This document shows positions 33,278 to 63,196 of a stretch of 64,000 nt of DNA, piece after piece (the first letter of the stretch is position 1; each line of letters opens with the position of its first letter). The stretch comes from Natronoarchaeum mannanilyticum (lineage in GTDB: Archaea > Halobacteriota > Halobacteria > Halobacteriales > Natronoarchaeaceae). The translations under genes were made by a program, and so were the position numbers. Below the pieces are notes generated by a model, which did no database searches, was not told where the DNA came from, and saw nothing but the letters and a program-made list of their open reading frames with translations. The stretch spans positions 558,001-622,000 of the forward strand of contig NZ_BAAADV010000007.1 in NCBI RefSeq assembly GCF_039522665.1, in the 5' to 3' direction.

Positions 33278-33413
33278 GCGCGAGGGAAGGCGGGCCTGGG
33301 GGAAAACGTTGCCCACTCGGCGGCGGCCTGCGAACGCGGACGGCCGGACGCGGTGCGAGTGCGACGCCAACGCTCAACCCGCGAGGCGTGGTACGCTCGC
33401 CCGGGGAGACTCC

Positions 33414-42947: not shown

Positions 42948-43010
42948 TGCGCGGGACCGGATTCGAACCGGAGGAAGACTCGCTTCGCTCGTCTTCCAGG
43001 GTTCGAATCC
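42948..43010 (-). repeat. tRNA-Leu 3'-end copy with hairpin and inverted T arm
   Basis: Positions 42948-42971 repeat exactly the last 24 nt of the tRNA-Leu gene (43053-43076). Next come a hairpin with arms GGAAGAC/GTCTTCC (42973-42979/42991-42997) around an 11-nt loop, and an inverted T-arm copy: GGATTCGAACC (42959-42969) against GGTTCGAATCC (43000-43010). On the minus strand the loop reads GAGCGAAGCGA. Confidence 0.95.
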
Positions 43011-43052
43011 ACTGTTGTGCATACACGTCTCTCACTGGCGTTCGAGACGGTA

Positions 43053-43137
43053 TGCGCGGGACCGGATTCGAACCGGCGGACTCCTACGAGACAGCGTCCT
43101 AAGCGCTGCGCCGTTGGCCTAGCTTGGCTACCCGCGC
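43053..43137 (-). tRNA. tRNA-Leu (anticodon UAG)
   Basis: 85 nt, class II with a long variable arm. The acceptor GCGCGGG pairs with CCCGCGC, followed by discriminator A (43053). The anticodon stem CAGCG/CGCTG encloses CTTAGGA, giving anticodon TAG, which reads CUA and probably other CUN codons. The T loop is GGTTCGAATCC. CCA is not encoded and no intron is seen. A 24-nt copy of its 3' end lies 81 bp downstream. Confidence 0.96.
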
Positions 43138-58974: not shown

Positions 58975-59272
58975 AGTGGCCGGGCGCGGCGTTCATGTTC
59001 GCGCGAGCGAGCTCGGAAGACGCTCTGCGTCTTCCGGTGCCGCGCCCTGGGGGAGGGCAGGCCCGCGGTACGGTTGCTGTCGCTGTGCGGTGGCGGTGCT
59101 GTGTGGTCCTGGCGTCCTGACGAGCGAAGCGAGTCAGGGCTCGGAAGACGAGCGGTGCGCGGTTCGGAACGAAGTGAGAACCGCGAAAGCGAACGGCGAA
59201 GCCGTGAGCGTAGTGAGTCTTCCGGCGGAAATGCAAAGGGCGAGCGACCGAAGGGAGCGAGGGCTTTGCTAC
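58975..59272. repeat. Intergenic hairpin element C with nested hairpins
   Basis: Fills the gap between the thiolase and PAC2 genes. Outer arms GGGCGCGGC/GCCGCGCCC (58982-58990/59039-59047) enclose an inner hairpin GGAAGACGC/GCGTCTTCC (59015-59035). Then CCTGAC/GTCAGG (59116-59138) has loop GAGCGAAGCGA. GGAAGAC/GTCTTCC (59143-59149/59217-59223) encloses another, GCGGTTC/GAACCGC (59159-59165/59178-59184). No gene is credible. Confidence 0.8.
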
Positions 59273-62983: not shown

Positions 62984-63058
62984 AGCGGGATGGGATAGCC
63001 AGGAGATTCCGGCGGGCTCATAACCCGCAGACCGGTGGTTCAAATCCACCTCCCGCTA
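62984..63058 (+). tRNA. Initiator tRNA-Met (anticodon CAU)
   Basis: 75 nt. The acceptor AGCGGGA pairs with TCCCGCT, so position 1 is an A:U pair as in archaeal initiators, with discriminator A at 63058. The anticodon stem GCGGG/CCCGC encloses CTCATAA with the three G:C pairs characteristic of initiators. T arm: GTGGTTCAAATCCAC. CCA is not encoded; no intron is seen. Confidence 0.97.
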
Positions 63059-63131
63059 CTTCTTCCGAATCCAACTCTCAAGCGAGGCGTTTTATCGCCG
63101 AGCAACTGCTGGATTCGGAGGAGTACGACGA

Positions 63132-63196
63132 GTGGATTTGAACGAGAGAAACGCGAGCGGAGCGAGCGTTTCGCGTTGTTCAAATCCACCTCCCGC
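63132..63196 (+). repeat. tRNA-Met 3'-end copy with hairpin and inverted T arm
   Basis: 63178-63196 repeats 19 nt of the tRNA-Met 3' half (63038-63056). The inverted T arm GTGGATTTGAAC (63132-63143) pairs with GTTCAAATCCAC (63178-63189), and a hairpin with arms GAAACGC/GCGTTTC (63148-63154/63166-63172) lies between, its loop being GAGCGGAGCGA. Architecture is the same as downstream of tRNA-Leu. The rest of the gap 63197-63406 shows no recognised gene or RNA. Confidence 0.95.

Follow-up and report, generated by a model that had tools for sequence, protein, structure and literature searches.

The initiator tRNA-Met gene in the analysed window (64,000 nucleotides in full) is followed by a composite palindrome of a kind that recurs beside tRNA genes in most genomes of one archaeal class. 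We read such units as miniature insertion cassettes, non-coding and site-specific, whose mover is probably a tyrosine recombinase that works in trans on folded DNA and cuts at the T-loop; we give this reading a probability of about one half. The parts at tRNA-Met are as follows.

62984..63059, + strand: initiator tRNA-Met (CAT), called by ARAGORN and by Rfam RF00005
63039-63058, + strand: duplicated segment of tRNA-Met, T54 to N73
63060..63124, + strand: hairpin A of the tRNA-Met unit, immediately 3' of the tRNA (arms 63061-63073 and 63110-63122)
63132..63143, + strand: T' of the tRNA-Met unit, an inverted copy of T-loop and T-stem, GTGGATTTGAAC
63144..63177, + strand: hairpin B of the tRNA-Met unit, apex GAGCGGAGCGAG (GGA triloop 63159-63161)
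63178..63196, + strand: direct copy of the tRNA-Met 3' part, GTTCAAATCCACCTCCCGC

The order 3' of the tRNA is thus hairpin A, T', hairpin B and copy (T-loop to tRNA 3' end). The palindrome given in a preliminary description is real, with its inverted arm, 7-bp stem and 19-nt copy all in place. The stem of hairpin B (GAAACGC/GCGTTTC) encloses GAGCGGAGCGA (63155-63165), and the copy at 63178-63196 is identical to the tRNA-Met 3' part starting at 63038. Hairpin A, a second hairpin between tRNA-Met and the inverted arm (63061-63122), had been overlooked. Folded as DNA, the Met palindrome was far stabler than its shuffles (z = -5.5). The sister species differs on both sides of the hairpin A stem, with GGCG..CGCC against GACG..CGTC. 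A search of Rfam families gave no match in the unit; the tRNA alone reached its threshold.

A second locus lies 20 kb away, at tRNA-Leu.

43053..43137, - strand: tRNA-Leu (TAG)
43013..43052, - strand: hairpin A of the tRNA-Leu unit (the same hairpin A occurs in the sister species)
43001..43012, - strand: T' of the tRNA-Leu unit, GTGGATTCGAAC, imperfect
42969..43000, - strand: hairpin B of the tRNA-Leu unit, loop GAGCGAAGCGAG
42948..42968, - strand: direct copy of the tRNA-Leu 3' part, GTTCGAATCCGGTCCCGCGCA

The two loci had been described as sharing one architecture. Order and orientation of the parts do agree, whereas the supposed identity of the loops and perfection of the Leu arm do not hold. 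The Leu loop is GAGCGAAGCGA, a single base off the Met loop, and the Leu arm reads GTGGATTCGAAC where a perfect version would be CCGGATTCGAAC.

The earlier view that coincidence is unlikely was borne out by the position of the loop. Eight of the 88 GAGCGNAGCGAG sites in this genome lie at most ~125 nt after a tRNA (expected 0.18, P ~1.5e-11). The loop was ruled out as a tRNA-specific signal, given its 88 copies genome-wide: hairpins of this kind are an intergenic feature (52 for the reversed control), most of them away from tRNAs. An example of an intergenic GAGCGNAGCGAG hairpin stands at 59121 of the window. The loop followed within 30 nt by a T-arm copy occurs eight times in this genome, each time at a different tRNA and with hairpin B flipped at tRNA-Ile; the reversed control gave none. 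This strict pattern was found in 9/9 genomes of the family and in 305 of 391 Halobacteria, while the control stayed at zero in all genomes listed, a result that supports the proposal of one recurring mechanism behind both loci. Haloferax, Halorubrum, Haloarcula, Natronococcus, Natrialba, Halorhabdus and many other genera carry it. A larger survey, named beforehand as the refuting test, was run and placed arm and hairpin at tRNAs beyond chance. Its T' search, run independently of the loop, gave at least 10/12 identity in 129 of 222 units, and the reversed arm gave none. This set of 222 units out of 270 tRNA loci is loop-enriched, since most loci were found by the loop. Of 188 collected pattern matches, 158 had a tRNA of like orientation no more than 500 nt upstream.

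Two full tRNA surveys that were not enriched for the loop gave a similar picture. A copy of the gene's own 3' part was present downstream of 21 of the 43 tRNA genes in this genome, at 84-153 nt, and of 19 of the 45 in the sister species; neither survey found one upstream. Matches outside the haloarchaea (Burkholderia, Planctomycetota, Prolixibacteraceae) were without a matching tRNA copy downstream of a tRNA and were taken as chance. Viruses and plasmids carry units rarely or not at all, with matches limited to one on a virus (L039, which has the loop without T') and two on megaplasmids. A single viral locus (L344) matched the T'-hairpin-T pattern; its reading as a phage with such a site was withdrawn, since the inverted arm belongs to an ordinary attR, where it forms the anticodon arm of tRNA-Ser. 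A second tRNA-linked class was also seen at tRNA-Ala, tRNA-Arg and tRNA-Asp (L233, L234, L238, L262, L292). In that class only the acceptor strand is repeated and inverted, and the hairpin often ends in TCACTCCC or TCAGTCCC.

The copy matches the tRNA beside it. T54-N73 (20 nt) was identical to the tRNA in 124 of 164 first copies, which lie a median of 103 nt past the tRNA 3' end; agreement over T54-A59 is by construction, as the copy finder demands a match there. The left edge of the copy falls at T54 or G53 and the right edge near N73 in most copies. T' stem bases agreed with their own tRNA at 3.57 of 5 positions, compared to 2.78 +/- 0.05 when shuffled. Changes on both sides of the T/T' helix occurred in 93 cells versus 43 +/- 6 in shuffled data, a co-variation above all 500 shuffles and all slid controls. 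Hairpin B behaves differently. A hairpin-B cluster at 85% identity spans up to 20 tRNA species, each with tRNA-specific T', and an identical 34-nt hairpin-B module stands at both tRNA-Leu and tRNA-Gln. The hairpin is therefore shared and its arms are local. At three loci hairpin B is exactly flipped between T' and T, over arms of ~11 nt.

Stable RNA tetraloops are of the GNRA type, with a purine required at the third place. The GNNA apices of the units include GCTA, GCCA and GGTA, with non-purine third bases, and all four bases occur at N of the apex GA-G-C-GNA-G-C-GA. One apex variant carries A-T (GAACGNAGTGAG), and 44 units that were not ascertained by the loop carry other apices. G-C-closed GNA and GNNA mini-hairpins of DNA are extraordinarily stable for any N (PMC4686876). 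The loop GAGCGNAGCGAG fits the GNA kind, and the apex probably acts as DNA rather than RNA, a likeness of sequence that is suggestive and not proof. No discussion of GAGCGAAGCGAG was found in open-access haloarchaeal papers.

Sequence comparison between relatives supports insertion and exchange: units are precisely present or absent, arrays are polarised towards the tRNA, A and B modules are swapped, T and T' co-vary, and one module occurs at many tRNAs. At tRNA-Ser (TGA), two extra units stand beside the tRNA in this genome and the third matches the first of the sister species. At tRNA-Arg in sister species of another genus, the arrays read tRNA-B (L303), tRNA-A-B (L292), tRNA-E-B (L298) and tRNA-E'-A'-B-C'-D' (L297). 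All four have unit B and the flanking gene in common, and at one exact point between the tRNA and this older unit they carry nothing, A, E, and E' plus A', respectively. Units A and A' have hairpin A in common and not hairpin B; for C and C' the reverse is true. A further pair of loci (L060 and L178) differs by a repeat-bounded block, with A and B modules swapping independently. Among 49 multi-unit arrays, divergence was greater in the last copy than in the first in 20 arrays, and the opposite was seen in 1 (p = 2e-5). At tRNA-Ser and tRNA-Arg, and by array polarity, the newest cassette adjoins its anchoring tRNA. Within an array, deletion between the 20-nt repeats could likewise leave a unit present in one species and absent from another, and units may change their order by unequal exchange.

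Similar duplications were seen at protein genes. In the genome parts examined for other GAGCGNAGCGAG sites, the 3' ends of three such genes, named here from reading their translations, are repeated beyond a GAGCGNAGCGAG hairpin. The duplication spans 30 bp including the stop codon at a thiolase-like gene (G000:C1:677344-677700; L278, L321) and 24 bp including the stop codon at a sufS-like gene (G000:C3:335783-336100; L287). It is imperfect at an aspS-like gene (G000:C1:126066; L271), the sole one of the three with a T'-like inverted arm. The thiolase site, with boundaries read by eye, is empty in the sister species and has no duplication there. In a member of another genus of the family the homologous thiolase unit stands in tandem, with compensatory stem changes that keep the pairing. 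As the loop is not tRNA-specific and protein genes carry similar 3'-end duplications, tRNA processing is probably not the mechanism.

On the cassette reading, a cassette of ~80-150 nt (hairpin A, T' and hairpin B) would enter at the 3' end of a tRNA gene. T54-N73 (~20 nt) would then flank it on both sides, with the tRNA left intact. New cassettes would enter beside the tRNA, and arrays would grow outward from it as distal units decay. T' would pair with the T copy, so that the folded single strand presents a duplex T-loop site with hairpin B as its cap. A tyrosine recombinase from the host, a provirus or a plasmid would cut this site at the T-loop, working on the folded DNA in much the way that IntI works on attC. 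The simplest guess for the match to the local tRNA is that the target is duplicated on insertion and quasi-palindrome correction follows; either process alone would be an alternative. The enzyme, the folded single-strand step, insertion over repeat-mediated loss at each single locus and this origin of the match are what we infer.

Four features point to recombination at the T-loop: the T-loop edges, tRNA-side polarity, module exchange at T/T' and T-T' flips. Judging from the T/T' pairing and the DNA-stable apex, the substrate may be a folded single strand, as for attC. The T stem-loop and tRNA 3' ends are known target regions of tyrosine integrases (PMC8371274). In line with this, the tRNA-Gln copy of a likely provirus in this genome starts at C56. 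This genome has 11 Phage_integrase matches; no recombinase gene linked to the units was found. An integrase is adjacent to a unit or att copy at three loci (L039, L075, L183), each time outside it. Several points weigh against the cassette reading: no recombinase gene stands linked to the units, viruses and plasmids rarely or never carry them, and just one of the three protein genes has a T'-like arm. An element using classical att exchange also brings its own tRNA end, and spreading one module over 20 tRNAs would take a further step. A bolder version, which we hold only tentatively, is that tRNA genes serve as platforms of an integron-like system. Its recombinase would recognise the T-loop on folded single-stranded DNA with a GNA mini-hairpin cap, and the local tRNA end would be copied at every insertion.

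A route by template switching and microhomology-mediated exchange would need no dedicated enzyme; we regard it as doubtful, though it could produce much of what is seen. Broken or stalled forks would copy hairpin modules between tRNA loci through the shared T-arm word GTTCRAATCC, a return upstream would duplicate the 3' end, and quasi-palindrome correction would fit T' to its tRNA. The perfect palindrome at tRNA-Lys resembles such a corrected quasi-palindrome, and tRNA-Gly has an exact tandem unit duplication (L085). At tRNA-Leu (TAG), position 57 has changed in concert in T-loop, T' and copy, G here and A in the sister species with the same hairpin A. Repeat-mediated deletions are documented in Haloquadratum (PMC3119063). 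However, edges that keep to T54 and N73 in a wide variety of tRNAs, arrays polarised towards the tRNA, clean hairpin-B flips over ~11-nt arms and duplications of 24-30 bp at protein genes that have no T-arm word all argue against this route.

That the units are plain attR remnants, left from viruses or plasmids that had integrated, is already unlikely. Partial tRNAs directly adjacent to full tRNAs have been noted as remnants in Haloferax gibbonsii (PMC7921747), and a proviral att copy begins in the same loop as the copies of the units do. It belongs to the likely provirus in tRNA-Gln (~26.5 kb, G000:C7:304387-330866), where it sets in at T-loop base C56 and a Phage_integrase match follows immediately within the element. 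Remnants would not be expected to show constant short spacing, two hairpins, a tRNA-matched T' and recurring modules, and the two proviral att copies that were read (L039, L075) have no T'. Larger stretches lie beside some units. About 58 kb with integrase matches (G000:C7:346426-404549) separates tRNA-Arg (TCG) from an old unit with its 3'-end copy, as if an island had integrated on the tRNA side of the unit. At tRNA-Ala (L166, 3289-5157), 1.9 kb with two small genes, nucleotidyltransferase/HEPN-like by eye, lies between tRNA and unit.

A functional RNA or regulatory element conserved in tRNA trailers, with a role in processing, in termination or as an sRNA, would suit the wide occurrence and the structured hairpins with their compensatory changes, and is nonetheless improbable because the carrier tRNAs, only about half of the tRNA genes, differ between sister species, with the missing Rfam match, DNA-stable loop type with non-purine GNNA third bases, decaying distal copies and similar units at protein genes speaking against it as well.

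The cassette reading would explain many partial tRNAs called remnants in haloarchaeal annotations. It would add a tRNA-anchored class of mobile DNA present in most genomes of one archaeal class, and would offer an easily scored natural system for folded-DNA recombination outside integrons. It also carries a warning for tRNA gene finders, as ARAGORN appears to call some composites as tRNAs. ARAGORN reports a tRNA-Arg (GCG) at 33289-33380 of the window that the Rfam tRNA model does not, probably a false call. Open-access papers, with few subscription journals among them, gave no earlier account of such an architecture.

Among known systems, integron cassettes resemble the units in forming arrays at a single fixed anchor, beside which the newest member stands. 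Like attC, the units have a recombination point beginning G^TT and are palindromes in which the core pairs, a spacer stays unpaired and the apex varies. Unlike integron cassettes, they have no ORF and their platform is a tRNA gene. They read GTTCRAAY, with the fourth-base C invariant in the alignment, rather than core GTTRRRY and inverse core RYYYAAC, and no IntI was found in their genomes (integron integrase TIGR02249, 0 of 145 Halobacteria genomes above cut-off). The Haloquadratum MITEs, PATEs and SMRs are likewise small, non-coding and mobilised in trans, and PATEs have palindromes near both ends (PMC3119063). PATEs are IS605 relatives that make no target duplication and are not tied to tRNAs (PMC3119063), whereas the units, which also have hairpins at both ends, duplicate 20-30 bp of target and so do not fit the IS605-derived PATEs. 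Integrative elements that target tRNAs with a tyrosine recombinase (SNJ2, pNOB8, HF1-type proviruses) share the duplicated tRNA 3' part and intact tRNA. These elements are kilobases long with an integrase gene inside and keep to one tRNA each; the units are ~100 nt and non-coding, with one module family for up to 20 tRNAs. In CTX phage, two inverted partial sites around a hairpin in attP(+) fold into one duplex recombination site; the single-stranded phage genome enters at dif by host XerCD, with no target duplication. The units share such inverted partial sites round a hairpin, but duplicate their target and sit at tRNAs rather than dif. Set beside these systems, they resemble mobile DNA of a kind not so far described.
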